Shown one piece after another: positions 8,695-39,729 of a stretch of 51,076 nt of DNA. Both the position numbers and the translations under genes were made by a program. Position 1 is the first letter of the stretch. The number at the start of each line of letters is the position of its first letter. The notes below the pieces were generated by a model, which was given only the letters and a program-made list of their open reading frames with translations, was not told the origin of the DNA and made no database searches. The stretch covers positions 1 through 51,076 of the forward strand of contig JAFTXX010000017.1 of assembly GCA_017461475.1 (NCBI GenBank). The letters run 5' to 3'. Origin of the DNA: Clostridia bacterium. GTDB lineage: Bacteria > Bacillota > Clostridia > Oscillospirales > CAG-272.

Positions 8695-8723
8695 TTGTAA
8701 GCACAACGTTGATTTGCTATAAT
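8695..8723 (+). promoter_or_regulatory. Promoter of the AraC-type regulator gene
   Basis: TTGTAA at 8695-8700 and TATAAT at 8718-8723 with a 17-bp spacer, 25 nt before the regulator's start codon. AAGGTGGTG supplies the ribosome binding site. Confidence 0.7.
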
Positions 8724-8748
8724 ATTTTAACAAGGTGGTGTAAAATTC

Positions 8749-9534
8749 ATGAATTTTTCTTTGGAAAACATCAAAATTACAAGAATTCACGGCGTCTACA
8801 ATGTTAACTTCAAAGATAATCATTTTGCAGAAAGAAAAGACCGTAAAGTTTGCGCTTTAGCCTACAAAGCATGCGGCAAAACGGAATATATCTGTGAACA
8901 AAAAAGCTATATAGTTGATAAAAACAACGTTTTGCTTATCCCTCCGCAAAAACCGTATGCCTACAACATTTTAGAGCTTGGAACGTGCATCATGGTAGAG
9001 TTTGAATGTAATAACGATATCAGCGACTTTTACCTTTACAGAATCTCGGACAGCAAGCAAATACGGAGCCTTTTTACAGAAGTTTCACAACTCTGGGCTG
9101 CAAAAAGTAACGGATATACTCTCGAAATTCTTTCGGTTGTATATAGAATCCTTTATTCCGTTTGCATCGGCAGCAATATTGATTACAGTATTCAAAAAAA
9201 GGAAACGGCACTGCTACCGGCAGTAAAATACATTCAGGAAAACTATTGGCGAAGTGATATAAGCAATGATGCTCTCGCACACCTTGCAGATATGAGTACG
9301 GTATACTTCCGCAAGTTATTTACCAAGCGATACGGCGTTTCTCCAATGAAATATATTAGCAATATTAAAATCGAAACGGCAAAAAACATGTTGCTCAGCA
9401 ACAACTTAACCGTATCAGAAATTGCAGAAGCAGTAGGGTTTTCAAGTGTATACTCGTTTTCACGCACTTTTAAGAAACAAACCGGTCTTTCCCCTACAGA
9501 GTTTTTGAAAAAGAACAGCACATTTTCAATTTGA
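8749..9534 (+). CDS. AraC family transcriptional regulator
   Basis: 261 residues. The N-terminal ~150 residues form a probable cupin-like ligand domain; the C-terminal ~95 residues hold the double helix-turn-helix of AraC/XylS proteins (SNDALAHLADMSTVYFRKLF, then VSEIAEAVGFSSVYSFSRTF and GLSPTEF). It is transcribed divergently from the six-gene catabolic operon and very likely switches it on in response to the substrate. One inverted repeat lies between the two genes. Confidence 0.93.
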   Translation: MNFSLENIKITRIHGVYNVNFKDNHFAERKDRKVCALAYKACGKTEYICEQKSYIVDKNNVLLIPPQKPYAYNILELGTCIMVEFECNNDISDFYLYRISDSKQIRSLFTEVSQLWAAKSNGYTLEILSVVYRILYSVCIGSNIDYSIQKKETALLPAVKYIQENYWRSDISNDALAHLADMSTVYFRKLFTKRYGVSPMKYISNIKIETAKNMLLSNNLTVSEIAEAVGFSSVYSFSRTFKKQTGLSPTEFLKKNSTFSI

Positions 9535-16596: not shown

Positions 16597-16615
16597 CTAT
16601 TCACCGAACAGAATA

Positions 16616-16757
16616 TATGTCAGGGGTGCTGCGTAACGCGGCTGAGATGGGCAAGGCCCGGACCCTTTACCTGATACGGATAATGCCGTCGTAGGGAGAT
16701 ATAATAAGAGAAGTATATTTCCGCACAGGCATATCGTCTGTGCGGAATTTATTTTTC
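16616..16757 (+). promoter_or_regulatory. TPP riboswitch (THI box) with expression platform
   Basis: The aptamer (about 16616-16706) has all thi-box landmarks: CAGGGGTGCT, CTGAGATGGG, GACCCTTTACCTGAT, CGGATAATGCCG and GTAGGGAG. It is followed by a terminator hairpin, TTCCGCACAG (16719-16728) with CTGTGCGGAA (16738-16747) and a T-rich run. Expected behaviour: thiamine pyrophosphate binding favours the terminator and stops transcription of the thiamine transporter. It sits in the 5' UTR of thiT. Confidence 0.95.
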
Positions 16758-17365: not shown

Positions 17366-17728
17366 GCAACCGAGTGCATGATCGCGCGATATGTCGCCGA
17401 AAGGTATTATCGCGAGGAAAGTCCGAGCTTCACAGGGCAGGATAACGGATAACGTCCGCCGAGGGTGACCTCAGGGAAAGTGCAACAGAAATAGACCGCC
17501 GCGCAAGCGGTAAGGATGGAAAGGCGAGGTAAGAGCTCACCGGCACGACAGGCGACTGTGTGCAAATGTAAACCCTATCCGAAGCAACACCGTATGGAAA
17601 GCGTTTGCCCGACATATCTTTCCGGGTGGCAGCGGGAATTTTTCCCCAAGCCGTTTGGTAACAAGCGGCGAAGATAGATGATCATGGAGCGACTTAGCTT
17701 ACAGAACTCGGCTTATAGCTCGTGTTGC
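17366..17728 (+). ncRNA. rnpB: RNase P RNA, bacterial class A
   Basis: The catalytic RNA that trims tRNA 5' ends with protein RnpA. Conserved blocks are in order: GAGGAAAGTCCGAGCTTCAC (P4 5' strand/CR-I), GGTGACCTCAGGGAAAGTGC, ACAGAAATAGACCGCC, AAGGATGGAAAGGCG, GGTAAGAGCTCACCGG and, near the end, CGACTTAGCTTACAGAACTC. P1 is formed by GCAAC...GAG at the 5' end and CTCG...GTTGC at the 3' end, which set the boundaries within a few nucleotides. Its own consensus promoter and terminator flank it. Confidence 0.96.
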
Positions 17729-17763
17729 AACCCGACAGTTTTTACTGTCGGGTTTTTGTTTTT
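17729..17763 (+). terminator. rnpB terminator
   Basis: AACCCGACAGT-TTT-ACTGTCGGGTT followed by TTTGTTTTTG. Confidence 0.93.
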
Positions 17764-27612: not shown

Positions 27613-28179
27613 TCAAGCGTTTCCCGCTTGGACTTTCTCTGTTATATTAAATAGCTCAATCAATTCCTTTATTGCATCAATTGATATAAAGCAATCCTGA
27701 TTATCATGAGCATATATTCTTTCGCTCGACGCATAGTTAATATCAATCTTTGCACCATACATATCAGGGAGTCCGCTTGCTTTGCTGATATAGCCATTAT
27801 ATTGGGCAAAATCATATTTTGATATGATTTCCTGAAGACTTGTCATAAATGATGCATCCGCTGTGAAATCGTGTTCTTCTCCGGCACCTGCTCTGTCACG
27901 CCATTTGATTTTCGATTTAACAGCTCCATCTTCTAAAACAGCACTCAGCTTATAATTTCTTCCGTCAAGCTCGCTTTCTTCTTCTAAAACAATGGTATAA
28001 AGCGAGACCTCAAATTCAAAGCTGATTATTTCTGTTGATTCTATGACCTTCGGTGAATCCTCACCACTGTTATATGTTTTAACTCCACCGTCGATGTTGT
28101 CTGAATTACGGCGAGATAATCCACAGCCACAAAATCCCATAGTCATAAGTAAGATAATACTTGTTATAATTCGTGACAT
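27613..28179 (-). CDS. Putative lipoprotein, last gene of the ydj-like cluster
   Basis: 188 residues with an N-terminal hydrophobic segment ending MGFCGCGLS, a likely lipobox with Cys about residue 19, then a soluble domain of mixed charge (for example ELDGRNYKLSAVLEDGAVKS). I recognise no family. The start at 28179 follows GAGGGGTGGT; the longer frame to 28194 includes the binding site itself. It lies next to the integrase remnant, so its 3' end may mark the old element junction, though the protein looks complete. Confidence 0.6.
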   Translation of the reverse strand: MSRIITSIILLMTMGFCGCGLSRRNSDNIDGGVKTYNSGEDSPKVIESTEIISFEFEVSLYTIVLEEESELDGRNYKLSAVLEDGAVKSKIKWRDRAGAGEEHDFTADASFMTSLQEIISKYDFAQYNGYISKASGLPDMYGAKIDINYASSERIYAHDNQDCFISIDAIKELIELFNITEKVQAGNA

Positions 28180-28206
28180 ATTACCACCCCTCAAGTTATT
28201 GCTTAT

Positions 28207-28293
28207 TTATTCTTCTGCACTCATATATGTAAGGTTGCCCGACTCATTTATTACGCCGATAGAATGAAATAGCCATTTACCAATATAGTTCAT
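28207..28293 (-). pseudogene. Truncated 28-aa paralogue of the 151-aa protein at 31835-32290
   Basis: The frame reads MNYIGKWLFHSIGVINES then GNLTYMSAEE and stops. It matches position by position the first 28 residues of the 151-residue protein 3.5 kb upstream (MDHIGTWVFHSIGAMNDKDE). It keeps a start codon close behind the SPFH gene, preceded by ATTGGAGGTGCC. Either a broken copy or a real micro-protein; loss of about 120 residues favours a broken copy. Confidence 0.65.
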
Positions 28294-28309
28294 AACGGCA
28301 CCTCCAATA

Positions 28310-29638
28310 TTATTGCTTATCGCTTTCATCAAAAACATCTCCGCACTCAGGGCAGAACTTTGGTGGATTCATTGGATCTTCGGGTGTCCAACCACACTTA
28401 TCGCACTTATATAAAGGTGCTCCTGCAGGTTTGGGGCTTCCGCAGTTCTGGCAGAACTTACCCGTGTTCGCCGTACCGCATCCGCACTGCCAGCCCATTG
28501 CAGGGCTCGGCTGCGGCTTTCCGCAATTCTCGCAGAATTTTCCACTGTTATGCGTTCCGCACTCACAGTTCCAGGTGGGTTTTCCGGGTACTGCCGTCCC
28601 TGCCGGCTGGCTCACCATGGTATCCTGAACATTGTTGGCACCCTGCATAAATCCTGCCATTCCGCCCATCATATTTCCTGCCATACCCATGCCCATAAAT
28701 CCTGCCATTGCGCCGTTTTCATTTGCAGCAGCAGTATTCATAGCCTGAGCAGTTGCACCTGCCAAATGACCTCTCATCATATTAGCATCTCTGCCCATAG
28801 CAGCGCTTCTCTGATATTCAGTAATTCTTGCTTCGTCTTCTTCAGTTGCATTAACGGAAGATACTCCAAACTCAACGATTTCAACACCGCGTCTGTCTCT
28901 CCATTTAGAAGATAAAAGCTCATTAAGCTCGTCTGCAAGCTGCATTGTATATGCAGGAATTGCACCGTAATAGATATTGTTCTGTGAAATCTTGAACATT
29001 GCAGGCTGAAGTGCGGTAAGTAGCTCAGACTTTAACTGTCCGTCAATTTCATCACGCATAAATGCATTTTCCACATTTGCGCATACGTTGGTATAGAAAA
29101 GCATAGGATTTATAATTCTGTAAGAATACTCACCATGGCAACGGATTTTAATATCAAGAGGAAATCCAATTGCCTGATCCATAATCCTGAAAGGAATAGG
29201 AGAAGGTGTACCGTACTTATTTCCCATAATTTCTTTTGTATTAAAATAGTAAACTCTCTGGTCCTTTGCAGGTTCACCACCAAAGGTAAAACGCTTGCCA
29301 ACCTCTTGGAAGCTCTTTTTAATATTTTCACCGAGTCCGCCATAGAAAAGGCTTGGCTCAGTGCCCGTGTCGTAAACAAATTCGCCCGGCTCTGCACAAA
29401 GCTCTACAACCTTGCCCGATTCTACAATCATCATACATTGTCCGTCATTGACATTGATAATTGATCCGTTTGAAATAATGTTATCTGTGCCTTTTTTGTT
29501 AGAGGAGCGACCGCCTGCTTTTTTCTCTCCCTTTACCACAAGGGTGTCAGCATCTAAGCTCTCACAATAGAAATAATCTCTCCAGGAGTCTGCGAGTACC
29601 CCCGATAATGCTCCAATACCTGCTTTTAATAATCCCAT
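28310..29638 (-). CDS. SPFH domain protein with zinc ribbons (YdjI/'virion core protein' type)
   Basis: 442 residues. The first ~300 are the SPFH 'virion core' domain of the Bacillus YdjI family (FYCESLDADTLVVKGEKK, VESGKVVELCAEPGEFVYD, FNTKEIMGNKYGTPSPIPFR). A Met/Gly-rich linker follows (MAGFMGMGMAGNMMGG), then three zinc ribbons near the C-terminus with paired Cys (CECGTHNSGKFCENCG; CGCGTANTGKFCQNCG; CDKCGW...CPEC). Known: B. subtilis YdjI helps place the phage-shock protein PspA at the membrane. It lies 3 nt after a lipoprotein gene in a long minus-strand cluster that also holds YdjG- and YdjH-like genes. Confidence 0.9.
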   Translation of the reverse strand: MGLLKAGIGALSGVLADSWRDYFYCESLDADTLVVKGEKKAGGRSSNKKGTDNIISNGSIINVNDGQCMMIVESGKVVELCAEPGEFVYDTGTEPSLFYGGLGENIKKSFQEVGKRFTFGGEPAKDQRVYYFNTKEIMGNKYGTPSPIPFRIMDQAIGFPLDIKIRCHGEYSYRIINPMLFYTNVCANVENAFMRDEIDGQLKSELLTALQPAMFKISQNNIYYGAIPAYTMQLADELNELLSSKWRDRRGVEIVEFGVSSVNATEEDEARITEYQRSAAMGRDANMMRGHLAGATAQAMNTAAANENGAMAGFMGMGMAGNMMGGMAGFMQGANNVQDTMVSQPAGTAVPGKPTWNCECGTHNSGKFCENCGKPQPSPAMGWQCGCGTANTGKFCQNCGSPKPAGAPLYKCDKCGWTPEDPMNPPKFCPECGDVFDESDKQ

Positions 29639-29641
29639 AAT

Positions 29642-30232
29642 TTATTCTCCCTCCTGAACATATAAATTTTCATCCATTACTGAATAATCTGTAATATCCC
29701 ACACGTCGGGATTTGGAACAAGCTTTCCGTCTCCACCGATTTGCGGCGAAAACTTATGCCCACTCAAATTCTGCTCTGTGCTGATTTCGATGTTTGAATG
29801 TAAATCAGACAAGTTACATTTAACAGTAAATGCCTCACCATTATATATGGTGTGAACTTCGCCTGTATCAAGAGTTGTTATATCAACATCCTCTTTGTAT
29901 CTCGGCACGATTAAGTACCATTCGTCGCCTTCAAAATCAAAATGCTGAATTTTATCGACGGATTCATCCGAAAGACTTTCAAACACACCTTTCACATAGT
30001 TATCCCTGAAATCCATTCTGTCGCCATATCCTAAAAATGCCACAGCAAACATCGGCTGACCGTCATAATTATCAAAGTCAAAGACATTTGCATATATGCT
30101 TCTGTAATCCGAGTCCTTATAGACCATACCTGTTTTGTCAAGCACCTGTGGTTTTACCGACGAGCACCCAAAGAGTGATGCGATCATCGTGATAATAGCC
30201 ATTATTTTCATAATACTTTTTATCATCCTCAT
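29642..30232 (-). CDS. Putative lipoprotein
   Basis: 196 residues; signal peptide ending MIASLFGCSS (lipobox Cys about residue 23), then a soluble domain with alternating strands (MFAVAFLGYGDRMDFRDN, DEWYLIVPRYKEDVDI). Family not recognised. Start at 30232 chosen for the GGGGTGATTTT site; an upstream ATG at 30271 would overlap the previous gene by 35 nt. It sits between the DUF3298-type lipoprotein and the SPFH protein, with 3-5 nt gaps, so expression is coupled. Confidence 0.65.
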   Translation of the reverse strand: MRMIKSIMKIMAIITMIASLFGCSSVKPQVLDKTGMVYKDSDYRSIYANVFDFDNYDGQPMFAVAFLGYGDRMDFRDNYVKGVFESLSDESVDKIQHFDFEGDEWYLIVPRYKEDVDITTLDTGEVHTIYNGEAFTVKCNLSDLHSNIEISTEQNLSGHKFSPQIGGDGKLVPNPDVWDITDYSVMDENLYVQEGE

Positions 30233-30236
30233 AAAA

Positions 30237-31769
30237 TCACCCCGCATATAAAAGTTCTTCGAAGCATTCATCTTCAGGAATACCGTTAACCATTATCGGC
30301 CAATTGGATGCGTCGATATTGAGCCTTACAATTCCGCCGTTTTCTGTTTTTAAGTCAACATAGCTCTTTCCGTCTGTCTGATATGGCGTAAGTGATGTAC
30401 CGGCAGGAAGCTCTGCTTTTTCCAGTTCAGGCAGAAGCTCTGCTTCAAGAGGTATTGCTGTTTTTACATCGTGACCGTAATTAAATGTATATGCATCATC
30501 TGTCATTTCAGGCTTTCCGTCTTTTTCGCTTAGCTTATAGGTTGCCGTAGCTCCACGTGTTCCCAATATTTCAAATCTTGTTTCAAGTCTTAGAAATTCA
30601 GGATTATTGAATGCCTGTTTATAGGTGGTTCCTTCTTCAAAGTCTTCCTCTATATACTCATAATCAACTTCTGTGCCGGAAAGCTCATGGATAATCTTGT
30701 TAGTATTACCGTTTATATCCCAAGTACAGAACATATGGTAGTCATTGTCCGATGAAGCGTCGGAATAAATATAGTTTTTATCACCAATATGTGCTAAATA
30801 AACATCAAAATCATAAGCATAGTTGATTTCATCAGTAAAGGTTCTACCGTTTACCGTAACTGAAAGCATATTGTATGAGCCATATTGATCCAATGAAGTA
30901 TCTATTTCTATGTAGTCCTGTTTATCATCATTTTCATTTAAGTCATAATCAATTTTTTGTCGCATTGGAAGTGTCATTACATAATTTTCAGGAGATTCCA
31001 TATACGCTTGATTAAACATATCCGGATATTCATCAAACCAGATTCTTGCTGATAATGTTCCTACAGAAAATGCTGCAATTTCGTATGGACTGAACCAGAA
31101 GGTTATGCCCTGATAATCTATCGTCCATGTAAATTCATCTTCCTTATATTTGCTGAAAGTATCTTTCAAATCAAAAAATGCCACATCCGGATATTTTTCA
31201 GTTATTTTCTTTTCTAAAATAGAAGGCAGTTCTTTTGTATCCGTCAAAACATCTGAAAGTTGAACCTTTTCTCCCGTGTCCGAGTTATAGTTTTTTCCGT
31301 TTACAAAATAATCAGGATGGACTCCGCCGGTGTACTTTTCTATACCTTCCAGAAAACTTACAATATGATTGTCTGCTCTTTGCAGATAAACCTTAGCGTC
31401 TGCCTGACAATATACAGGGTTATATTCTTCACCCTCCATCTCGGCGGCTAACGGTGTAAATTCATACATAAGCGCCTTTGCATCGGTCAGGCTTTCTTCA
31501 TTATACTTATCGAAAGCAGCCGAAAGAGACGGATATGCTTTGCTGTATTCATCAGAAAGTCTGAGCTTTTGCCATTTTACGCTTGTGATAACATTATTTT
31601 CGTGCCATTCTTCTATATTGGTATCACCAATCATCACATCAACAAATGTGCTGATATTTTCCGGTTTTGGATTTTCCTTTACATTTCCGGGATTACTGTT
31701 TGAGCACCCTGCAAAAGTTATAATCATACAAACAGTGATGAAAATAAAAATCATTTTTTTATGTAACAT
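30237..31769 (-). CDS. Lipoprotein with DUF4163/DUF3298 (RsiV/PdaC-type) domains
   Basis: 510 residues. Lipobox ITFAGCS near residue 21. The middle holds a PdaC/RsiV-like pair: a DUF4163 region (residues about 90-170, YKY-type with GGVHPDYFVNGKNYNSDTG) and a DUF3298 region (ITFWFSPYEIAAFSVG). A second half of about 250 residues is of unknown type. Known: RsiV, the anti-sigma factor of lysozyme response, uses this module to bind lysozyme. A role as envelope sensor or lysozyme-binding protein is an inference. Start at 31769 is 8 nt after AAAGGAG. Confidence 0.78.
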   Translation of the reverse strand: MLHKKMIFIFITVCMIITFAGCSNSNPGNVKENPKPENISTFVDVMIGDTNIEEWHENNVITSVKWQKLRLSDEYSKAYPSLSAAFDKYNEESLTDAKALMYEFTPLAAEMEGEEYNPVYCQADAKVYLQRADNHIVSFLEGIEKYTGGVHPDYFVNGKNYNSDTGEKVQLSDVLTDTKELPSILEKKITEKYPDVAFFDLKDTFSKYKEDEFTWTIDYQGITFWFSPYEIAAFSVGTLSARIWFDEYPDMFNQAYMESPENYVMTLPMRQKIDYDLNENDDKQDYIEIDTSLDQYGSYNMLSVTVNGRTFTDEINYAYDFDVYLAHIGDKNYIYSDASSDNDYHMFCTWDINGNTNKIIHELSGTEVDYEYIEEDFEEGTTYKQAFNNPEFLRLETRFEILGTRGATATYKLSEKDGKPEMTDDAYTFNYGHDVKTAIPLEAELLPELEKAELPAGTSLTPYQTDGKSYVDLKTENGGIVRLNIDASNWPIMVNGIPEDECFEELLYAG

Positions 31770-31834
31770 TTTCATCTCTCCTTTCATGGCTTATGCTTTT
31801 AATTTATATTTCTTACGCCCAGGGGTCTTCTGAT

Positions 31835-32290
31835 TCAGGCTTTTACAAACCGAGTAGAAGCAACGGTAAAGTAACCGTCCTTATCTATCGCCTTTACCCA
31901 ACCGTCCACTTTCTCCCCAAAGACCTCGCCTTCGATGCCCGTGTCGTACCACAGCTCACCATCTCGCTCCTCCCAGGCCAGAGGGCGTTCAGCCATCATG
32001 CCACCCAACAGGGTGATCACTCCGGCGGACACGGCTTTATCGACTTCTTCTTGGGACACGCCCTCGGGCAGTGGCGAGAGCAGATAGAGCTTGCCGTCCT
32101 CACAGATCTTGACCTGCATACCAACCATTTTCTTCCGTTCCTTCATTTCATCCGCAACGGCTTCCTCATCTGTCTCGTCCACATAGGGCATTGGAGAGTT
32201 CAGATAGTCTTCCGCGCTGAGATACACCAGCTCATCTTTGTCGTTCATGGCTCCGATGGAGTGAAAGACCCATGTTCCGATATGATCCAT
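31835..32290 (-). CDS. Uncharacterised 151-aa protein (GTWVFHSIG family)
   Basis: No signal peptide or membrane segment. The N-terminus MDHIGTWVFHSIGAMNDKDE is shared with the 28-residue fragment at 28207-28293. The middle is acidic and helical (DETDEEAVADEMKERKK); the end has GELWYDTGIEGEVFGEKVDG. The opening 'GTW.fhsIg' resembles a lipocalin-like strand. GAGGAGG precedes the start. Codon use is GC-rich, like the next two lipoprotein genes and unlike the surrounding AT-rich genes, so this block was probably acquired together. Confidence 0.65.
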   Translation of the reverse strand: MDHIGTWVFHSIGAMNDKDELVYLSAEDYLNSPMPYVDETDEEAVADEMKERKKMVGMQVKICEDGKLYLLSPLPEGVSQEEVDKAVSAGVITLLGGMMAERPLAWEERDGELWYDTGIEGEVFGEKVDGWVKAIDKDGYFTVASTRFVKA

Positions 32291-32344
32291 ACCATTTCCT
32301 CCTCATGTTTTATTTGATTGCTTTGCAACTCCGGGATAAAAGTT

Positions 32345-32405
32345 CTTCTCAAAGCACTCTGCCTGTGCGGAGTGCTTTGAGAAGAAGGGAGCCGAAGCTC
32401 CCTTC
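32345..32405. terminator. Two stacked hairpins downstream of the 459-aa lipoprotein gene
   Basis: CTTCTCAAAGCACTC (32345-32359) pairs with GAGTGCTTTGAGAAG (32370-32384); next to it GAAGGGAGC-CGAA-GCTCCCTTC (32384-32405). No long T-run follows on the minus strand, so it may attenuate or stabilise mRNA rather than stop all transcription into the next genes. Confidence 0.55.
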
Positions 32406-32436
32406 GACCGGGTTATGGGTTTCGCACGAGGATGCG

Positions 32437-33816
32437 TTACTGGCGGACAAGCGGCATATCCACAACGGACAAGTTGGAGACGTACATGGTATCGCCCTCA
32501 ATCCTGATCGTGAAACCGTCCTCTGTGCCATCATCATAGATGATCTCCACATAGTCGCCGTTGTAAAAACTATAGGTGAATGCAAACTCGTAAACCTCGC
32601 CGTCTGTGTAGCTATACAGACCGGTGCCGTCTTCGTTAAAGGTGAAGATCTCCAGATAATCGCTGTCCTGAACGTCCCATGTGCCCAAGATCTCCGTGAT
32701 ATAGGGATTGCTGAGCTCATCCTCGGGCTCCTCGGGATCTTCGATCTCGGGTTTGGGTTCTTCTTCTGCCTGCTTATCCAGTAACAGCTCGTTGTTGAAC
32801 TGATCGATCATGGTCAGCAGATCGCCGTCGACGGAGATGGTGAATTCTTCCTGATCGCCGTCATCATAGGTCAACGTGAGAATGTCACCGTTGACAACAT
32901 AGGTAAAGGGATACTCAGGACCGCTTATCACAACACCGGTGCCGTCCGCATTGAAAATGAATGTGTCGTCCCAGTCGCTGTCACGCTGCAGCCAGGTACC
33001 CAGCAGCTCGGCGGCATCCACGTTCACGACGGGAGTTTCCGCTGTTTCGCCTTCACCATCCAGCGGCCAGGTTCTGCCGCTATCCACGCCGAACAGCTGT
33101 CCGGCGATCCAGGCGCACCGGTCCACCGTCAGATCAGCCCAGCCGGAGAGTTCAAAGCCCACCAGAGCGGGAGCGAACAGGTGCTCCTCCGTCCCGCCGC
33201 CGTCCTTTGTCCTCCAGTATTCGTTCTCAAATTCCACGCAGACAAACAGCTCCGTTTGCTCCGGATAGTCCGAAAAGGTGTAACGGGTCTCCAGCAGCAT
33301 CACGTCTTTGCCCTCCCACTGGAAGCCCAGGTCGGTGACGGTCTGGGAGCAGTTCTCATATTCCTCCGCATTTATCTCATCCAGCTCGCCGTAAAAATAG
33401 AGCTGCGGCGCTATTTCATAGACCTCCGGGTCGCTGGTGTAGATCTCCCGGCTCCAGTGGTTTTCGGCATAGGCTTGATATTCCCGCACGTCGTCGTAGA
33501 CGGTGAAGGACATGACGCTGCCGTCTGCTTTGTACTCCTCCAGATCATCCTCATCGATGTAAGCGCCCTCCGGGCAGTAGAAAGTGGCCTCATACCCGCC
33601 GTAGTGATTGGAACCATAAAACAGCACGATGGAATCTCCGCCCTCGTCCTCTTTTTCGCCTGTGCCGGAGGGAGTGGTGCCGGGAGTCGGCGTGGTGGTG
33701 CCTGTATTCGCGGGTTTATCCGTATTGTCGGGAGGCGTGTTATCTTTTCCGCCGCCGCAGGCGGTCATCGACAGCAGCATCGCCGCTGTCAGCAGAAACG
33801 CAACGATCTTTTTCAT
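32437..33816 (-). CDS. Lipoprotein with two lipocalin-like (DUF5640-type) repeats
   Basis: 459 residues. Lipobox SMTACGGG (Cys about residue 20), a Thr/Pro-rich linker, an N-terminal domain, then two related repeats: LLGTWLQRD ... FIFNADGTGVVI ... LTLTYDDGDQEEFTI (from about residue 268) and ILGTWDVQD ... FTFNEDGTGLYSY ... VEIIYDDGTEDGFTI (from about residue 387). Such repeats form small beta-barrels in Firmicute lipoproteins. GC-rich and strongly acidic. Separated from the next genes by paired hairpins. Function unknown, on the outer membrane face. Confidence 0.75.
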   Translation of the reverse strand: MKKIVAFLLTAAMLLSMTACGGGKDNTPPDNTDKPANTGTTTPTPGTTPSGTGEKEDEGGDSIVLFYGSNHYGGYEATFYCPEGAYIDEDDLEEYKADGSVMSFTVYDDVREYQAYAENHWSREIYTSDPEVYEIAPQLYFYGELDEINAEEYENCSQTVTDLGFQWEGKDVMLLETRYTFSDYPEQTELFVCVEFENEYWRTKDGGGTEEHLFAPALVGFELSGWADLTVDRCAWIAGQLFGVDSGRTWPLDGEGETAETPVVNVDAAELLGTWLQRDSDWDDTFIFNADGTGVVISGPEYPFTYVVNGDILTLTYDDGDQEEFTISVDGDLLTMIDQFNNELLLDKQAEEEPKPEIEDPEEPEDELSNPYITEILGTWDVQDSDYLEIFTFNEDGTGLYSYTDGEVYEFAFTYSFYNGDYVEIIYDDGTEDGFTIRIEGDTMYVSNLSVVDMPLVRQ

Positions 33817-33847
33817 GTTGCTCTCTCCTTTCTTCTAACAGTTTGAA

Positions 33848-34525
33848 TTACTCTTCAATAAGTGTCAGGTCGATCTGCGAAGCGCCGGCGGTGTCCGCAT
33901 CCTCGGTAAAGTAGATGGAGAAGCTACCCTCATAACCGGCGTCAGATACCGTGATCTGCCATTCAAAATAGTCGCCGTTATCATACATCGGTTCGCCGAG
34001 CATTGCCCGGACGTCGCTCTTTGCCATGCCGAATGTGACACCGAGAAGGGAAACGCCCTGATCCACAGGCTCGCCGGAATAGGTGATCATGGTGATCTCC
34101 TCCGCCTGAGCGTCGGCGATGTTGATGGTATCATCTCCCCCATTGTAGTACGCCGGACTAAGCAAATAATCCTCATTTTCATCCAAAAAGAGGTTTACCG
34201 AGAAGAAGTCTCCCGGAGCCAGCTCGATCTCTTTTCGGGATTCATCCTCCGGGACGCCCGCCGCCTCCAGCTCTCCAAGGTGGTATGGCATGGGCACCGC
34301 CGTTCCGTTCACCACGATGGCCGCGTTTCCAAGGCCGATTGTCAAGATACCGTCCTCAGCGGGCTTGATTTCCGCCGGCGCCCCTTGCGGCGCAGAATCT
34401 TTTTTCGCTGCATTATTGTCGGTTGTCTCGCCTATGCCGGAAGGAGGGGTGTCTTTCCCGCCGCCGCACGCTACAAGTGCAAATACCATAATTCCTGCTA
34501 ATAATAAAGCTAATAACTTTTTCAT
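33848..34525 (-). CDS. Lipoprotein with BamE/SmpA-like C-terminal domain
   Basis: 225 residues. Signal and lipobox ALVACGGGKD (Cys about residue 20), a linker, a domain with GNAAIVVNGTAVPMPYHLGE, and a C-terminal stretch GVTFGMAKSDVRAMLGEPMY typical of BamE-like folds, where 'G.s..dV...lG.P' starts the first helix. The lipobox region nearly repeats that of the neighbouring 459-residue lipoprotein, so their signal regions may be related. GC-rich block. Position inside the cluster suggests a co-regulated surface protein. Confidence 0.7.
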   Translation of the reverse strand: MKKLLALLLAGIMVFALVACGGGKDTPPSGIGETTDNNAAKKDSAPQGAPAEIKPAEDGILTIGLGNAAIVVNGTAVPMPYHLGELEAAGVPEDESRKEIELAPGDFFSVNLFLDENEDYLLSPAYYNGGDDTINIADAQAEEITMITYSGEPVDQGVSLLGVTFGMAKSDVRAMLGEPMYDNGDYFEWQITVSDAGYEGSFSIYFTEDADTAGASQIDLTLIEE

Positions 34526-34544
34526 AATATAATTCCTCCTAAAA

Positions 34545-35429
34545 TTAGTTTATTTTTGCTTCTGCCGCATCTGCTGATCTTGTATACTGAGCGAGTCCGC
34601 CGGTCTGTGCATCGTCAATAGCGTGCATATTTTCCATAATTTCAGCTTTCTTTTCTTCGGTCATTTCGCCGCCATTCTTTGCAACCTTTACTGCATCAAA
34701 TGCAGTTTTGGTAAAGGCAACCGCTGCCTTCAGGTCACGTTTTTCTTTTGTTGACATACCAAAGCTGAACAAGCCCTTTTGCCCATCGTTTACACCGAAT
34801 ATGTAGTCAAAGTGATTAATTGCATTATCTGCATATATCAAGTAGTTTTCCTTTTCTCTGTCGTTAGTTGCAAAGCATACCTTGATTTCCTCTGTAATAT
34901 ACGGGTGAGCACGGAGCCCTTTTTTCATTTTTGTGGTATCATCAAGGGCACCGACAAGTCTTATGATAATACCGCCCTCGTGGAACACTTTCGGTTTACC
35001 GGCTTCTTCCGGCTCGGCCTCTTCGTAATACGGTTCATAGCTTGCCACCTGGTCATAACGGAAAAGCTCTGTCGGGTATCTGTCCTTGCTGTCTCTGGAA
35101 CCGTCCATGATGCGAAACATTCCAAAATCATCAAAGAACTCAATGCCCTGTCTCTGCGTTGCAGACGGATAACACTCGTGTTTTCTTATGCCGGGAAGTA
35201 TTACTTCGTTGTAAATTCTGTCCAAGCGTTTCATATACTCCATATGACCTTCAAGCTCGGATTTTGTGTATCTGCCTTTTCTGATAAAGTTTGAACACAT
35301 ATCATCGCATTTTGAGCATATGTATTCATCTCCTTTGATTTTTGTGCGGCTCATCATACCGCACTCGCCTCCGCAAAAAGCGCAGGTCTTCTTGCCGAAA
35401 ATGTTTTTAAAGAAATCACTTAATCCCAT
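34545..35429 (-). CDS. DUF4428 zinc-ribbon protein
   Basis: 294 residues. Near the N-terminus a DUF4428 zinc ribbon: CAFCGGECG ... YICSKCDDMC (CxxC pairs at about residues 16-19 and 38-41). The rest is soluble, with a PH-like middle (ELFRYDQVASYEPYYEE, GIIIRLVGALDD) and a helical end. Proteins of this type often co-occur with SPFH and TPM genes in Firmicutes. Start at 35429 has AAGGAGG; the longer frame to 35477 does not. AT-rich like the ydj-type genes around it. Confidence 0.8.
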   Translation of the reverse strand: MGLSDFFKNIFGKKTCAFCGGECGMMSRTKIKGDEYICSKCDDMCSNFIRKGRYTKSELEGHMEYMKRLDRIYNEVILPGIRKHECYPSATQRQGIEFFDDFGMFRIMDGSRDSKDRYPTELFRYDQVASYEPYYEEAEPEEAGKPKVFHEGGIIIRLVGALDDTTKMKKGLRAHPYITEEIKVCFATNDREKENYLIYADNAINHFDYIFGVNDGQKGLFSFGMSTKEKRDLKAAVAFTKTAFDAVKVAKNGGEMTEEKKAEIMENMHAIDDAQTGGLAQYTRSADAAEAKIN

Positions 35430-35491
35430 AATCTTTGCCTCCTTAAAATTTATGTTGATTATATATGTTAATTTCAATTAATATTTTTTAA

Positions 35492-36271
35492 TTAAAAGCT
35501 TCCACCTTGTCCGCCATGAGTTCTGCCTGACGATGAGGTGTGTGTGCCGGAACTTGACTTTGCTTTTTCAGTTTTTGTTATTATTGAATACAGGAACAAA
35601 TCTCTCGAAACCGCTATATTCGTACTTCCGGGCTTTATGTAATTTGCCGCATAATCGTTACTTACGGCTGTTTTCATTTTTTTGAGCTTTCTTTTCATCA
35701 TCCAGAAGGCTATCAGAAGCGGTGCGATAAGGCATACAATAATAACTCCCATCAGGTATTTTGTACTGTATTGTTTTTCGTTGTAGGGCTTTCCGCTTTT
35801 CGCCATTTCTAAAAGCTCTTCCGAGGTTTCTATATATATATCAAATGCCTCGTAGTAATCATTTTCCGAAAGATACGGCGCAACTTTGCTTTCGAGATAT
35901 TTCAGTCCGTTTGAATTAAAATACTCAAGTCCTTTGCCGTGTGTTGTGAAGTGATATTCACGGGTATCAGAACAAATATAAAGTAAAATTCCGTTATCGT
36001 TTTCGCCTGCACCGTAGCCGTTATAGTCATAAATATCATCTGCTCTTGCTTCTGCGGTGTCCGATGTCATATCACTTTCCGTATAAATCGCCACTTCAAA
36101 GTTATACTTTTCACGAACATTGTCAAGCTCCATTGACAGTTCATCAATCTCACTCTGCATAAGGTATCCGGCATCGTCGATAATCGGCGGATTATCAAAT
36201 GCCGCATAAGTCGGTAGGAGCAAAGTCATCGAGATGAAAAGAAGCAACATACACGAAAATATTTTTTTCAT
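35492..36271 (-). CDS. TPM domain membrane protein (YdjH-like)
   Basis: 259 residues: signal peptide (to about TYA-AF), a TPM/TLP18.3 domain on the outside (PPIIDDAGYLMQSEIDELSM, YNFEVAIYTESDM, GENDNGILLYICSDTREYHF, LSENDYYEAFDIYIET), one membrane helix (GVIIVCLIAPLLIAFWMM) and a Ser/Gly/His-rich tail ending SSSGRTHGGQGGSF. The tail resembles the glycine-rich ends of many TPM proteins. B. subtilis YdjH has the same plan and acts with YdjG to bring YdjI and PspA to the membrane. The stop is 62 nt before the DUF4428 gene start. Confidence 0.9.
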   Translation of the reverse strand: MKKIFSCMLLLFISMTLLLPTYAAFDNPPIIDDAGYLMQSEIDELSMELDNVREKYNFEVAIYTESDMTSDTAEARADDIYDYNGYGAGENDNGILLYICSDTREYHFTTHGKGLEYFNSNGLKYLESKVAPYLSENDYYEAFDIYIETSEELLEMAKSGKPYNEKQYSTKYLMGVIIVCLIAPLLIAFWMMKRKLKKMKTAVSNDYAANYIKPGSTNIAVSRDLFLYSIITKTEKAKSSSGTHTSSSGRTHGGQGGSF

Positions 36272-36285
36272 ATATCATCACCCCC

Positions 36286-37371
36286 TTAATGCAGTAGCAT
36301 CCAGCCGATAGCCGCTGCTGCCACATATGCGATTCCTGCCACTTTCACAAAATATTTCCACTTTTTGCTGTTGTCAACAGGATATTCACCTACAACCTTT
36401 CCAGTCTGACCATTGATTGCGAACTTATACATTTTGTCCATATACTTAATGTTGAGCATCCACACAGGAAGGAGAGAGTACCTTATCTTACCGTTTGAAA
36501 AGCCTACTCTTGAGCTTTCAGGGATAACTACTGTGTAGCGGTTAGTTGTGTCATTAAATGCCTCAATAGTTGAGTTTTTAACTCGTTCATTGGCTCGTTC
36601 AATGCTTTCTTCTGCCGATACATCATATTTGTCTGCCATGTATCCTGAAAGATAAGCTCCGCTAAACTCTACGGCATCTTGATAATTGTATGGTTCTACC
36701 GCTTCCATATAGCTATCTTCCGCCTTTTTTGATGCATCTACAGGGATGTTGGCAAAGCCGATGCGACCTCTTCTGAATAACTTAAAATAATCTGTTTTAG
36801 TGTAGTTATAATTTGCATCACTCCATGCAGTTGCCCTTTCTGCATTGTAGCTTACCGCTGCTTCACAGTCGCAGTCAAACATCCAGAACGGAACATATAC
36901 GCCTGCCATCTCTTCAATTTTCTTCTTGTTCTTAAAGCTATCGGGCAAAAACGGTGCATTTTTGAAGTCCCCTTCAAAAGTTTCCATTGCAGCTTTCTTA
37001 TTTAGCTTAAACGGAATTATGTAATCGGGTTTTAGTGTTCCTTCAAACTGTCCTTTAACAATAGTGGAGTTTCCACAATATGGGCAAACTGTGGAACCGA
37101 GAGTATCGTCGCCCGAAATCTCTGCACCGCAGGACGGACAAGAGTAATTTGCAAGGGTAACTTCGTTTGTATCTTCATAATTTCTCGGTGTATAGCTTTC
37201 CCAATCATATTTTGATGTACCGCCAGAATCGGCAGAGCCTTTTGTCATTTGCTGCATCGTTTCAAGCGGGAATGTATTGTCACAAGATTCACAGATTAAG
37301 TTTTGCGTTTCGGCATCGAACACTAAAGGTGCCGTACAACAAGGACATTTATAATTTTGCACCACATCCAT
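36286..37371 (-). CDS. TFIIB-type zinc-ribbon membrane protein (YdjG-like)
   Basis: 361 residues. Two N-terminal zinc ribbons: KCPCCTAPL ... ICESCDN (from about residue 8) and SCPSCGAEI ... VCPYCGNS (from about residue 77). They are followed by a long conserved region (DYIIPFKLNKKAAMETF, GVYVPFWMFDCD) and one membrane helix at the C-terminus (VAGIAYVAAAAIGWMLL). Matches the B. subtilis YdjG plan. The ribbons should face the cytoplasm; with YdjH it forms a membrane complex that recruits YdjI/PspA in Bacillus. TPM, DUF4428 and SPFH genes follow. Confidence 0.88.
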   Translation of the reverse strand: MDVVQNYKCPCCTAPLVFDAETQNLICESCDNTFPLETMQQMTKGSADSGGTSKYDWESYTPRNYEDTNEVTLANYSCPSCGAEISGDDTLGSTVCPYCGNSTIVKGQFEGTLKPDYIIPFKLNKKAAMETFEGDFKNAPFLPDSFKNKKKIEEMAGVYVPFWMFDCDCEAAVSYNAERATAWSDANYNYTKTDYFKLFRRGRIGFANIPVDASKKAEDSYMEAVEPYNYQDAVEFSGAYLSGYMADKYDVSAEESIERANERVKNSTIEAFNDTTNRYTVVIPESSRVGFSNGKIRYSLLPVWMLNIKYMDKMYKFAINGQTGKVVGEYPVDNSKKWKYFVKVAGIAYVAAAAIGWMLLH

Positions 37372-37403
37372 GGAATTTACCTCCCTTCATAATGGTAGAA
37401 TGC

Positions 37404-37766
37404 TTATTTTGCGATTTTTACCTCATTATTTGCTTCCGCACATTTCATGCAGCAAACTCCGCCACCAAGCTCGTCTGAATATACGGAGCAATCCTCGCAA
37501 ACCATATCCCCGCATATTTCACAACGATTCAGGTTCAGCCGAACTTCATTGTTTGCACGCTCATATGCCTTGCCGTGCTCACTTGCATAGATAATAGCTC
37601 TTGCTTCTTTTTCATCATTGGACAGAAATGTTTTCTGCGCAAAGGCACTGTTGAAGTCATATGCCTGTGTCTGGATTGCCTTGCCACAGCAATCGCAATA
37701 GAAAACAAACTTAAACTGTTTCATTGATGATTCGTCTGTGTATTTTTTTGTTATTGGACTCAGCAT
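37404..37766 (-). CDS. Small Cys-rich zinc-binding protein, first gene of the ydj-like cluster
   Basis: 120 residues with three Cys clusters: YCDCCGKA (about residue 24), RCEICGDMVCEDC (about residue 80) and GGVCCMKC (about residue 102), enough for two zinc ribbons or a cross-braced finger. No membrane segment. Not a family I can name. AAAGGAGGTAGTGC fixes the start at 37766. An internal ATG at 37724 has no site. An AT-rich region with poor -35 and three direct repeats lies upstream, suggesting activator control. Confidence 0.72.
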   Translation of the reverse strand: MLSPITKKYTDESSMKQFKFVFYCDCCGKAIQTQAYDFNSAFAQKTFLSNDEKEARAIIYASEHGKAYERANNEVRLNLNRCEICGDMVCEDCSVYSDELGGGVCCMKCAEANNEVKIAK

Positions 37767-37823
37767 CGCACTACCTCCTTTATTTATAATATAATTTTAC
37801 TTAAAAATCCTTATTGTGTATAT

Positions 37824-37904
37824 TAGCCCTAGGGCTACTTTTAATGATTTAGTGGGTGGACTTAGGGCTACTTTTTAGGATTTTAGGGGTAGACTTAGGG
37901 CTAC
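37824..37904. promoter_or_regulatory. Three TAGGGCTAC direct repeats spaced 33 bp
   Basis: TAGGGCTAC occurs at 37830-37838, 37863-37871 and 37896-37904, exactly 33 bp (about three helical turns) apart. The copy nearest the cluster is part of the palindrome TAGCCCTAGGGCTA (37824-37837). They lie 58-138 nt upstream of the first gene of the cluster, upstream of an A/T-rich -10-like segment (TATATT on the minus strand) with no good -35. A binding array for an activator is likely; the membrane LuxR-type protein encoded just upstream is the obvious candidate. Confidence 0.7.
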
Positions 37905-37921
37905 CATGCCTAATTTCACAC

Positions 37922-37950
37922 AAAAAAACCGCCCATTTTTCAATGGACGG
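37922..37950 (-). terminator. Terminator of the membrane LuxR-type regulator gene
   Basis: On the minus strand CCGTCCATT-GAAA-AATGGGCGG followed by TTTTTTT. It separates regulator transcription from the structural cluster. Confidence 0.88.
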
Positions 37951-37964
37951 AGATTTTGCCAATT

Positions 37965-38954
37965 TTAGATGTGTTTTTTTAATTTGGCATAGAGTTCAAA
38001 TCGGTTTGTTACATCAAACTTTGTGAAAATGGATTTTGTATGCTTTTTGATAGTGCTCTCGGTTACAAACAACTCGTCTGCAATTTCTTTTCGCTGTTTG
38101 TTGGTAAGCAGTTTTATCAAGACCTCTTTTTCTCTTTCGGTAATCTGACTTACAATTTCTTCACAGCCTAATATGTGCTCAATATCTTTTTCGCTAAAGA
38201 GAGCTGCATTATCATCAGACTGAATTGTTCCTGACAGATATTCTTCTGCTTTTTTTGAAGTGTTTGCTATTATAATGCTTCCGTTTTCACCCCTGATGCC
38301 GTACTCCTGCAAAATACCATACAAAAGCAAAATGAAAAGCTCGGATATTACATAGGACACCGTTAAAAATTCAAATCCACGTGGTAACAACTGCTCTGCA
38401 AACCATATTACAATACTGCAAAGCACAGCACACAGTAAGAAGGCAGTGTGGAGCTTGGATGTGATTTTCTTTTTTACTGCGGCGTATATAATTATACAAA
38501 GCATTAAAGCAAAATACGAAAGCAGATATATGTAGTAGAGCAAGTGCAGTGGTCCGTAATCACGAATAAGCTTTGTGACTCCATCTATAATTTCTATTGA
38601 AACACTTTTATAATAGCAGGTTAAAACTCCGGGCGTAAGTGTTACAAAAAGCACGGCTATGCTGATAACAGAAAGTGCAGGCAAGAGCCACTTTTTATAA
38701 TTAAGATTACACAAATCAAGTATCATTTTGAGCATAAGCAGAGGCAGGAATACCTGACCTAAATATGCAATTCTGTTACCGTTAAGGGCAAAGGAAAGGC
38801 TTGGTGCAACAGAAATCGAAAACTGTCCCAGGTTACACACGAACACCGATACAAATAAAAGCAATAAACATATATCTTTTTTTCTATCAACTGCGAAGCA
38901 CACGCCAATCAAAACCAGCGATATGACGCAGATGATTCCATAAGCTATACTCAT
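37965..38954 (-). CDS. Membrane-embedded LuxR-type transcriptional regulator
   Basis: 329 residues. About seven membrane helices in residues 1-225 resemble the N-terminal 7TM module of some histidine kinases (LALNGNRIAYLGQVFLPLLM). There is then a short linker but no kinase, receiver or PAS catalytic core. A LuxR/GerE helix-turn-helix ends the protein (TEREKEVLIKLLTNKQRKEIADELFVTESTIKKHTKSIF). It would sense a membrane signal and act directly on DNA as a one-component regulator. The ATG at 38954 has GGAG 9 nt upstream and lies 1 nt after the XRE stop. Upstream of the ydj-like cluster, same strand. Confidence 0.88.
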   Translation of the reverse strand: MSIAYGIICVISLVLIGVCFAVDRKKDICLLLLFVSVFVCNLGQFSISVAPSLSFALNGNRIAYLGQVFLPLLMLKMILDLCNLNYKKWLLPALSVISIAVLFVTLTPGVLTCYYKSVSIEIIDGVTKLIRDYGPLHLLYYIYLLSYFALMLCIIIYAAVKKKITSKLHTAFLLCAVLCSIVIWFAEQLLPRGFEFLTVSYVISELFILLLYGILQEYGIRGENGSIIIANTSKKAEEYLSGTIQSDDNAALFSEKDIEHILGCEEIVSQITEREKEVLIKLLTNKQRKEIADELFVTESTIKKHTKSIFTKFDVTNRFELYAKLKKHI

Positions 38955-38955
38955 T

Positions 38956-39210
38956 TCAAATTTCTCCATCACATATCGTATTGTCAAATAAGTCTATTTC
39001 TATTCCGTTCCTTTGACAAAAGGAGTAGAACTTACCGAGCAGAGCAAGCTGCGGCTTTCTGTTTTCTCGTTCCCATCTGCTTACCGTTGCAAAAGAAATT
39101 CCCATTTGCCGCGCAAGCTCCTCCTGACTGAGCTGCAGATGCATACGAACAAACTTTACCTGATCCTGAAAGTCCATTGTCTTAACTTTTAATATAATTG
39201 CATTTTCCAC
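38956..39210 (-). CDS. XRE family helix-turn-helix regulator
   Basis: 84 residues. A single HTH_3 domain: KFVRMHLQLSQEELARQMGI, SFATVSRWERENRKPQLALL. It has no effector domain, so it is a small Cro/C1-type DNA-binding protein. Start is GTG at 39210 with AGGTG upstream; an internal ATG at 39177 would give a 73-residue protein. One nucleotide separates its stop from the membrane LuxR-type gene, so the two regulators are made together. Confidence 0.88.
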   Translation of the reverse strand: MENAIILKVKTMDFQDQVKFVRMHLQLSQEELARQMGISFATVSRWERENRKPQLALLGKFYSFCQRNGIEIDLFDNTICDGEI

Positions 39211-39373: not shown

Positions 39374-39688
39374 TTATTTATTACCTTTAGCTCTGTTGTG
39401 AGTTTTACAAAGCATTTGACAGTTCTTTATATCCGTAGCTCTGCCTTTGCTCCAAGCGGTAACGTGATCTGCATCCATTTCGGTTATTTTCCATACACGT
39501 TTTTTGTTGTTGTCGCTGCCGATAGCGCAGAGAGGACAGTTAGACACATTCTTTGCTTTTGCCTTTTCGGTCTGCTGTGTATAAACCGTCTTTTTGGTCG
39601 GCTCGTCAAAGACACGGATGTTAAGGAGCTTGTTGTCGGTGCAGCCGCCGAGGATGTATTTGTAAACGCCCTTTTTGTCCTTTACATA
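39374..39688 (-). pseudogene. HNH endonuclease C-terminal remnant (DUF262-associated type)
   Basis: About 104 codons with no start codon. The frame has VYKYILGGCTDNKLLNIRVF, CPLCAIGSDNNKKRVWKI, MDADHVTAWSKG and NCQMLCKTHNRAKGNK. That is the C-terminal HNH/zinc region found on DUF262-type (GmrS-like) restriction proteins: CxxC, then the DH of the nuclease and a second CxxxH. The front is missing; it begins right at a perfect 18-bp palindrome. A remnant of a former defence gene. Confidence 0.75.
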
Positions 39689-39729
39689 AAAATGATGGTA
39701 GACACTTTTTTAGTGTCTACCATCATTTT
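39689..39729. terminator. Perfect 18-bp palindrome at the break of the HNH remnant
   Basis: AAAATGATGGTAGACACT (39689-39706), five T, and its exact complement (39712-39729). Flanking A/T tracts allow termination on both strands, for degV (minus strand upstream) and the HNH remnant. Its position at the truncation suggests it came with a rearrangement. Confidence 0.65.

Follow-up and report, generated by a model that had tools for sequence, protein, structure and literature searches.

Can the YdjG, YdjH and YdjI proteins serve the cell envelope in a lineage in which no PspA is found? The question is raised by a cluster of 13 genes (11.6 kb, minus strand, reading from 39210 to 27613) in a 51,076-nucleotide stretch of DNA, hereafter the window, from a lineage of uncultured gut Clostridia (Clostridia bacterium, Oscillospirales, CAG-272; GenBank assembly GCA_017461475.1, contig JAFTXX010000017.1). 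In Bacillus subtilis the pspA-ydjGHI operon is under sigma-W control. An earlier reading of the window alone (the original prediction) had described the cluster as a YdjGHI-like envelope-stress module without an adjacent pspA, rich in lipoproteins and headed by a membrane-bound regulator of the LuxR type, and the genes that it named are all present on the minus strand where it had placed them.

The cluster is a variant of the known YdjGHI module, without the phage shock protein (Psp) component, and not a new kind of system. Its core consists of YdjG, TPM and SPFH; the regulator is interchangeable. With a probability of roughly 0.58, we read the locus as a PspA-independent YdjGHI platform whose genes, as predicted from sequence, would be expressed together with those of variable surface proteins, under the control of a membrane LuxR.

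The YdjG-TPM-SPFH Core

Three genes make up the core:
36286..37371 (-): YdjG-like protein with two Cys4 zinc ribbons, a conserved middle domain and one C-terminal transmembrane (TM) segment
35492..36271 (-): YdjH-like TPM-domain protein (TPM, 85.6 bits)
28310..29638 (-): YdjI-like SPFH protein with three C-terminal zinc ribbons, seen by eye (Band_7_1, 56.3 bits)

The three parts of a YdjGHI module are thereby present: a YdjG-type protein, an adjoining TPM membrane protein and an SPFH protein with a C-terminal zinc ribbon. The YdjG-like protein matches Trm112p (23.8 bits, cut-off 22), with the remaining zinc-ribbon matches under their cut-offs, and shows a single C-terminal hydrophobic stretch by eye. 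Its zinc-ribbon cysteines (C9, C12, C27, C30, C78, C81, C96, and C99) are invariant across the 52 sequences (alignment A2) from which the YdjG profile was built. The TPM protein consists of a signal/TM segment, the TPM domain, a TM segment and a Gly/Ser-rich tail (the last two by eye). Among solved structures, the YdjG profile gave only zinc-ribbon-type and weak other matches, and the SPFH protein gave none.

As related loci we took the best 80 of 122 with a YdjG relative of the window protein; many are cut by contig ends, and 34 have full flanks. In 66 of the 80, YdjG is followed by a TPM gene on its own strand, and 52 contain SPFH; for the fully flanked 34 the counts are 31 and 24. The co-occurrence of the core genes as a set exceeds chance.

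Within 398 genomes of the phylum, YdjG was found in 38 at a threshold of 1e-20, and PspA was over cut-off in 105. Comparing the two genome lists by hand, 17 of the 38 YdjG-positive genomes have PspA and 21 do not. In 10 of the 38, pspA adjoins YdjG, with the matches at most about 310 bases apart. Seven of these ten loci were examined: five read pspA-YdjG-TPM-SPFH (L148, L150, L151, L152, and L154), one pspA-YdjG-SPFH (L149) and one pspA-YdjG (L153). This order in five of seven loci serves as a positive control, and the homology with the B. subtilis type is therefore real.

Some observations on the core weigh against our reading. Ten of the 34 loci with full flanks have no SPFH match, and the pairing with PspA persists in part of the phylum (17/38 YdjG-positive genomes compared with 105/398 overall). 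Among congeners of the source genome, the YdjG proteins of G030, G091, and G146 are only 33–36% identical, and in G030 and G091 the regulator described below was not found at 1e-25.

Absence of PspA

PspA was searched with PF04012 over the Pfam cut-off, a test that detected it in 9 of 14 control genomes, among them distant ones. The absence of an adjacent pspA, as originally described, extends to the source genome and to the family genomes searched. None was found in the source assembly (2.06 Mb, 76% complete, which limits absence calls there), and none of the 146 family genomes searched (103 rated good) has a PspA match that reaches the cut-off, two matches lying under it. In the same set, YdjG is found in 98 genomes at E ≤ 0.001 (97 at 1e-20 or better and one weak partial match), including 70 of the 103 good ones, and Band_7_1 is over cut-off in 108. 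The PspA/IM30 gene that defines the Psp envelope stress system was thus found neither in the source genome nor, over cut-off, in the family genomes searched.

For 50 of the 80 related loci we also searched the 50 genomes they come from, and 48 of these have no PspA over cut-off. One genome with the module and no PspA found is that of a cultured relative, Ructibacterium gallinarum DSM 107454 (L014), in whose examined stretch no window-type 7TM-LuxR was found. The two with PspA are a Treponema and a Lachnospiraceae metagenome-assembled genome; stretches of 3.7 kb around these two PspA genes have no DNA in common with the YdjG loci.

Surface Proteins Encoded With the Core

Between and beyond the core genes lie the following:
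34545..35429 (-): DUF4428-like protein with a zinc-binding-type N-terminus (Pfam match under cut-off)
33848..34525 (-): predicted lipoprotein a (passes a crude lipobox test)
32437..33816 (-): predicted lipoprotein b, with DUF5640/lipocalin-like stretches (passes the crude lipobox test)
31835..32290 (-): 151-aa protein (fails both the lipobox and the signal-peptide test)
30237..31787 (-): predicted lipoprotein c with DUF3298 (passes the crude lipobox test)
29642..30271 (-): predicted lipoprotein d (crude signal-peptide test), ending 3 nt ahead of the SPFH gene
27613..28194 (-): predicted lipoprotein e (crude signal-peptide test), with a 115-nt gap ahead

The tests are crude, and the signal-peptide test also flags the cytoplasmic TrkA. 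Five of the six lipoprotein or surface-type genes originally proposed are borne out by them, and the 151-aa protein is not. Lipobox-like LFGC and FCGC motifs are seen by eye in lipoproteins d and e. Homologues of lipoprotein d lie immediately 5' of SPFH in eight loci (L001, L011–L015, L026, and L027). Lipoprotein e has one homologue among the 80 loci (L020), and its membership of the cluster is weak. For the DUF4428-like gene we set the start at the ATG at 35429 (the listed open reading frame, or ORF, begins at 35477). A protein similar to DUF4428 is indeed there, its Pfam score of 23.9 bits lying below the cut-off of 27.8; four cysteines are conserved in 11 sequences, homologues occur in 15 of the 80 loci, and no signal peptide was found in the window protein.

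The genes between TPM and SPFH vary from locus to locus, with lipoproteins in the window and two SLH-domain proteins, one with Ig-type domains, in L001. Counting genes of at least 100 aa other than YdjG, TPM and SPFH, signal-bearing genes (crude test) are more frequent inside YdjG operons than outside them among the close relatives (L001–L037; 63/118 vs 84/289, Fisher p = 5e-6). In the distant loci (L038–L080) they are not (18/98 vs 64/419, p = 0.45), which speaks against a general tie. The proposed link between surface proteins and the module is therefore supported in part, for the close relatives and not for the distant loci.

These counts bear on a rather unlikely alternative, namely that the core is a constitutive, flotillin-like organizer of membrane microdomains with no stress role, and that the lipoproteins are unrelated passengers of the operon. 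The lack of enrichment in distant operons and the differing sets of surface genes would both fit such an organizer, but the enrichment in close relatives argues against it, as do the operator-like repeats and regulators that recur at these operons.

The original prediction had also proposed lipoprotein c as an RsiV-like, possibly lysozyme-sensing protein. The likeness to B. subtilis RsiV presumably lies in the DUF3298 domain (29.4 bits, cut-off 24.1) and the weak match to PdaC/DUF4163 (20.0 bits, under the cut-off of 29.1). We take the differences from RsiV to be the lipoprotein signal, the lack of any anti-sigma domain seen and the lack of a sigma factor gene in the cluster; no sigma factor family was over cut-off among the 13 genes. 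Only one match to a solved structure was obtained at E ≤ 1, a weak one to the uncharacterized protein 3cyg (E = 0.017). We rejected lipoprotein c as an RsiV-type lysozyme receptor, the lipoprotein signal taking the place of the cytoplasmic anti-sigma part.

Regulator Unit and Operator-Like Arrays

Upstream of the core lie a regulator pair and, between it and the core operon, an array of repeats:
38956..39210 (-): XRE/Cro-CI family DNA-binding protein, 84 aa (HTH_3, 37.7 bits)
37965..38987 (-): 7TM-LuxR (HisKA_7TM, 53.0 bits; GerE, 49.1 bits)
37929..37950 (-): intrinsic-terminator-like hairpin of 9 pairs (5 G-C) with seven T, ending the regulator unit
37824..37904 (-): operator-like array of three repeats 33 bp apart, between the hairpin and the core operon
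37904-37887 (-): array repeat GTAGCCCTAAGTCTACCC
37871-37854 (-): array repeat GTAGCCCTAAGTCCACCC
37837-37824 (-): promoter-proximal array palindrome TAGCCCTAGGGCTA, perfect over 14 bp
37794..37822 (-): weak promoter-like site TATACA-17-TAAAAT (9/12), directly 3' of the palindrome
37404..37766 (-): Cys-rich small protein, 120 aa with 10 Cys, whose gene opens the core operon

The XRE gene is the first of the regulator unit and overlaps the 7TM-LuxR gene by 32 nt. The latter encodes a multi-TM domain fused to a GerE helix-turn-helix (HTH), as in transmembrane LuxR one-component regulators, and matches solved structures only in the HTH. The XRE-LuxR pair and the hairpin 3' of LuxR recur in four related loci (L001, L004, L007, and L008); in L001 (8395–9401) the 7TM-LuxR frame is split into two overlapping ORFs of 80 and 257 aa, by a frameshift or an assembly error. 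The Cys-rich protein has homologues in the same four loci and a weak one in L026, and its position is held by other small zinc-ribbon-type proteins in L002 and L006 (same cluster) and in the congener G134 (by eye). G134 has a different small HTH-type protein (by eye) ahead of 7TM-LuxR, and carries XRE-type, 7TM-LuxR, DUF4428, YdjG, TPM, SPFH, lipoprotein and SLH-like genes within 25 kb.

Promoters and terminators were called as consensus matches and counted as classes against shuffled sequences: promoter-like sites do not clearly exceed chance (35 vs 28.0 ± 5.7), and terminator-like sites in the region exceed it slightly (15 vs 11.7 ± 4.3). Since a promoter-like TTGAAA-17-TATAAT (11/12) lies ahead of the XRE gene and the terminator-like hairpin 3' of LuxR, the XRE-LuxR pair is probably a separate transcription unit, with the core beginning at the Cys-rich gene. 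Gaps within sub-blocks are 3 to 62 nt, or the genes overlap slightly; larger gaps occur 3' of LuxR (198 nt), 3' of lipoprotein b (146 nt) and 5' of lipoprotein e (115 nt), and a second, weaker hairpin (32409-32390) lies between lipoprotein b and the 151-aa gene. The one-strand cluster is thus tight within its sub-blocks, as described, and probably comprises two or three transcription units rather than one. Two outcomes had been named at the outset as refuting the module: scattering of its core genes among relatives was not found, and a break-up of transcription probably does occur.

The array repeats read GTAGCCC... and fill the space from the hairpin to the core operon. Exact TAGCCCTARG occurs in the window only at the array (four strand matches), and two or three copies are kept in L001, L004, L007, and L008, in the order XRE-LuxR-Cys-rich-YdjG. 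A search of the 2.06-Mb assembly with the array 18-mer, allowing at most 3 mismatches, gave two matches, both exact and both at the array; the reversed-pattern control gave three, so that only the exactness is telling.

At other loci, 7TM-LuxR is divergent from the YdjG operon with CCCACAC or CCCACCC arrays between (initially spotted by eye); in L055 a homologue of the 151-aa protein takes the divergent position, across a CCCACAC array. At least four CCCAC[AC] within 130 bp occur in five clusters in 1.43 Mb of loci, compared with 0.1 in shuffles. Four of the five adjoin 7TM-LuxR (L003, L005, L013, and L055); L003, L005, and L013 are the loci that had supplied the motif, and the independent cases are L055, a match, and L073, a miss. 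This count superseded an overly coarse 7-mer test for upstream repeats, which, with ≤ 8 of 200 shuffles as its threshold, picked out the array loci L001, L003, L005, L013, L020, and L028 as well as L024, L045, L047, L070, and L074, and missed L004, L007, L008, and L010.

A pattern search of the 146 family genomes found 16 places in 13 genomes (control, 6). Nine are promoter-like arrays, and five of these lie beside 7TM-LuxR (L129, L130, L131, L136, and L137), one being the source genome's own, already known. Among the genes downstream of the five are, in G010, a run encoding two signal-bearing proteins of about 1,400 residues, SPFH, YdjG and TPM; others encode secreted Cys-rich proteins and, in L129, a Listeria-Bacteroides repeat protein. 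Four arrays have no 7TM-LuxR beside them; one is directly 5' of a DUF4428-lipoprotein pair (L139/L142) and one of another repeat protein (L140). In G003 and G118, chosen for a 7TM-LuxR near YdjG and examined later, an array lies 5' of the operon in both; that of G003 reads DUF4428-162 aa-lipoprotein-SPFH-YdjG-TPM.

The source genome has a second full 7TM-LuxR (G000:C47; L144, 3938–5038, minus strand), which faces a secreted Cys-rich protein of 1337 aa (5375–9385, plus strand) across a CCCACAC array and a leader RNA candidate. At a threshold of 1e-25, 7TM-LuxR was found at 27 places, of which 5 have YdjG within 12 kb (0.28 expected); without the source genome the figures are 4 of 25 (0.26 expected, P about 1.6e-4); distances were taken in genomes with 7TM-LuxR, setting aside weak partial matches, and the expectation assumes 2.2-Mb genomes and ignores contig breaks.

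Read from the DNA and the protein alignments, the site type changes with the LuxR recognition helix: ENTLK[FY]HN pairs with CCCACAC, and [SN]TIKKHT with TAGCCC/TACCCC (the 775-aa L012 match to 7TM-LuxR has no LuxR recognition helix and was excluded). The inverted half-site GTGTGG[GT]GAC ends exactly 18 nt 5' of the -10 in five of seven arrays measured. 7TM-LuxR is the proposed dedicated activator: it would bind the half-site arrays beside the -35 of the core operon, in the manner of a class II activator. The original prediction had the module reporting to the membrane regulator; the link itself holds, but the DNA sites point to a regulator that controls the module.

A number of counts limit this role. 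Found in only 21 of 146 family genomes, compared with 98 for YdjG, 7TM-LuxR is not part of the core, and 22 of its 27 places do not have YdjG within 12 kb, some proximity being hidden by contig breaks. The L073 cluster and four of the nine promoter-like arrays are not beside 7TM-LuxR, seven of the 16 pattern matches are not promoter arrays and were set aside on context, the arrays of L010 and of the congener G134 are degenerate, and the array type of the window was not seen elsewhere in its own assembly.

It is unlikely that XRE, rather than 7TM-LuxR, binds the TAGCCC array and represses, with LuxR acting on targets elsewhere, an arrangement that would be compatible with our reading of the core. 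Cro/CI-type operators are usually palindromic; the promoter-proximal site is a perfect 14-bp palindrome, and XRE is encoded first in the regulator unit. Nevertheless, loci with 7TM-LuxR and no window-type XRE found in the examined stretch (L003, L005, L013, L055, and L144) keep the 12-bp half-site step, and the site sequence tracks the LuxR recognition helix.

Other sensors were observed at such operons. In L002, L006, L009, and L020, a LuxR whose sensor region differs lies next to a gene of the solute-binding-protein cluster, instead of or besides 7TM-LuxR; these assignments are by sequence cluster, Pfam-tested for both genes in L006 and for LuxR in L009. A LuxR of 537–557 aa of the other type and an extracellular solute-binding protein lie beside YdjG operons in L006 (367–3457, minus strand) and L145 (13943–17048, plus strand), and the L006 protein has the same recognition helix: operons of this kind have a second type of sensor. 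A lipobox-like LxGC precedes the first TM segment, by eye, in 9 of 14 aligned 7TM-LuxR (A5; L003, L005, L010, L013, L020, L055, L112, L130, and L131, not the window protein), and these may be lipid-anchored regulators.

Leader RNA Candidate at Sister Operons

A conserved leader RNA candidate was observed 3' of array promoters, with the layout GGGTATA...GGGGTACCC...stem-CGCGCCAA loop-stem...CCGCCCC, at the following sites:
L156 5362-5450 (+)
L155 12269-12358 (-)
L144 5100-5207
L147 6072-6175 (-)
L009 4762-4882
L005 1369-1500
L020 5793-5914

No Rfam 15 identity was obtained in the loci searched, where low matches under cut-off fall elsewhere, and RNAalifold gave no covariation support (term +0.33; both-side changes in 3/12 pairs). 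Across 56 sources, the model R1 found seven distinct full sites, all training sequences, and one new partial site (L156, 5143–5185); it found none in the window.

The SPFH Form and a Possible Stand-In for PspA

From the window-type YdjG loci, the comparison of SPFH proteins took those over 200 bits and longer than 370 aa, short forms being excluded by choice. The 48 taken are 398–519 aa long, with at least three CxxC in 46 (two of the 48, from L040 and L063, come from genomes with PspA elsewhere), and all six pspA-linked SPFH are 330–360 aa with two CxxC. The window-type proteins start with MGL in 47 of 48, with a mean hydrophobic moment of 0.45 (lowest 0.24). The N-terminus of the window protein, MGLLKAGIGALSGVLADSW, is possibly amphipathic, with a moment of 0.50. 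Corresponding values are 0.47–0.53 for four PspA and 0.22–0.31 for five of the six pspA-linked SPFH, the sixth value (0.43) stemming from a wrong start codon. We infer that this N-terminus could be a membrane helix that renders PspA unnecessary, Gly-rich helices being hard to judge.

The similar moments could also be taken to mean that PspA is replaced by an ESCRT-III-like or amphipathic-helix protein invisible to PF04012, so that the cluster would be an ordinary Psp pathway with a hidden member. Several cluster genes have no family assignment, which would suit such a protein, but we consider it quite improbable, given that PF04012 detects PspA in the control genomes, distant ones among them. 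An anti-phage defense or conflict system is extremely improbable: some conflict systems contain SPFH, zinc-ribbon and TPM proteins and one paper on cyclic oligonucleotide-based anti-phage signaling (CBASS) reportedly names Ydj proteins, but ten of ten proteins tested (the cluster less XRE, 7TM-LuxR and lipoprotein e) gave no PADLOC match, and no nuclease or toxin domain was over Pfam cut-off in the 13 genes.

Proposed Function

For the PspA-independent platform we propose the following steps. By analogy with B. subtilis, YdjG and the TPM protein would form a membrane receptor that holds SPFH at the membrane. With no ESCRT-III-like PspA to recruit, SPFH itself would be the end effector, its scaffold ordering membrane patches and serving the lipoproteins or S-layer-type proteins encoded nearby. 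The 7TM part of 7TM-LuxR would perceive a signal from the membrane or envelope, and the protein, to judge from the DNA patterns, would switch expression locally. Both the stress function and the service to surface proteins are inferred. A wider version is offered tentatively: a family-wide YdjGHI receptor-scaffold free of PspA, in which SPFH, with its own N-terminal helix and extra zinc ribbons, would build patches for variable lipoproteins and SLH proteins. In part of the family, a so far undescribed class of 7TM-LuxR would switch the set through a half-site code of its own, joined at sister operons by a conserved leader RNA.

A lineage with a common receptor and no PspA found separates the two, suggesting that YdjGHI has a job of its own, and provides a clean genetic setting for the role of an SPFH scaffold at the membrane. 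The regulator-site pairs offer a testable code for membrane-bound LuxR switches in Clostridia. Among the papers listed in the searched open-licence library, none dealt with YdjGHI free of PspA or with operators of 7TM-LuxR and, judged by these, the maintenance of the module across a family where PspA was not found, together with the regulator-site pairing, seems new.

Other Features of the Window

The flanks of the cluster are ordinary, with TrkA, TrkH and tRNA-Ser on one side and DegV and a ZIP transporter on the other. Ten of the 13 proteins were compared with NCBIfam, and none of the ten gave a match over cut-off. Further features are:
39374-39691 (-): ORF upstream of XRE that by eye resembles the final part of an HNH-type endonuclease (CPLC...DADHV...CKTHNRAK)
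47600-49352 (-): group II intron domains (RF00029, RF01998, RF02001), close to tRNA-Ser
16612-16714 (+): thiamine pyrophosphate (TPP) riboswitch
17366-17732 (+): RNase P RNA

Comparison With Known Systems

The regulator resembles the Eggerthella lenta activators DadR, HcdR, and CadR, which combine an N-terminal multi-TM part with a C-terminal LuxR/GerE domain and often lie near the genes they control (PMC9734109). It differs in having HisKA_7TM instead of 12 TM helices, in coming from a different phylum and in its neighbors, which are envelope and surface genes here and catechol dehydroxylases there (PMC9734109).

Variants of the PSP system in Firmicutes share the band-7, TPM and zinc-ribbon partners, according to passages of two surveys (PMC11237479, PMC9239133). 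One proposes a chaperone-like assembly role and describes PspA systems as often coupled with surface lipoproteins (PMC11237479). As these passages have it, the surveys start from PspA (and PspC) genes, so that modules without these fall outside, and the same passages mention no PspA/PspC-free modules (PMC11237479, PMC9239133).

The closest counterpart is the B. subtilis pspA-ydjGHI operon, in which, according to parts of one study, YdjG (two zinc ribbons and TM), YdjH (TPM and TM) and YdjI (SPFH and zinc ribbon) are neighbors (PMC8581546). The likeness to the B. subtilis proteins was drawn through profiles of the phylum loci, with PF13421 matches in B. subtilis, and the window-family profiles recover all three proteins in the pspA-linked operons of the phylum. 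In contrast to the B. subtilis operon, no pspA adjoins the module here, is found in the assembly or is over cut-off in the 146 family genomes, DUF4428-like and lipoprotein genes separate SPFH from YdjG-TPM, and operator-like repeats lie beside a membrane LuxR; the SPFH protein is of a longer form than the pspA-linked one. The same parts of that study state that YdjI needs YdjG and YdjH for its membrane location and PspA needs all three, that both cell shape and the site of cell-wall synthesis are disturbed when YdjG or YdjH is lost, and that loss of YdjI lowers membrane fluidity (PMC8581546). These effects on shape, wall and fluidity may reflect roles other than the carrying of PspA, which would agree with a module lacking PspA.

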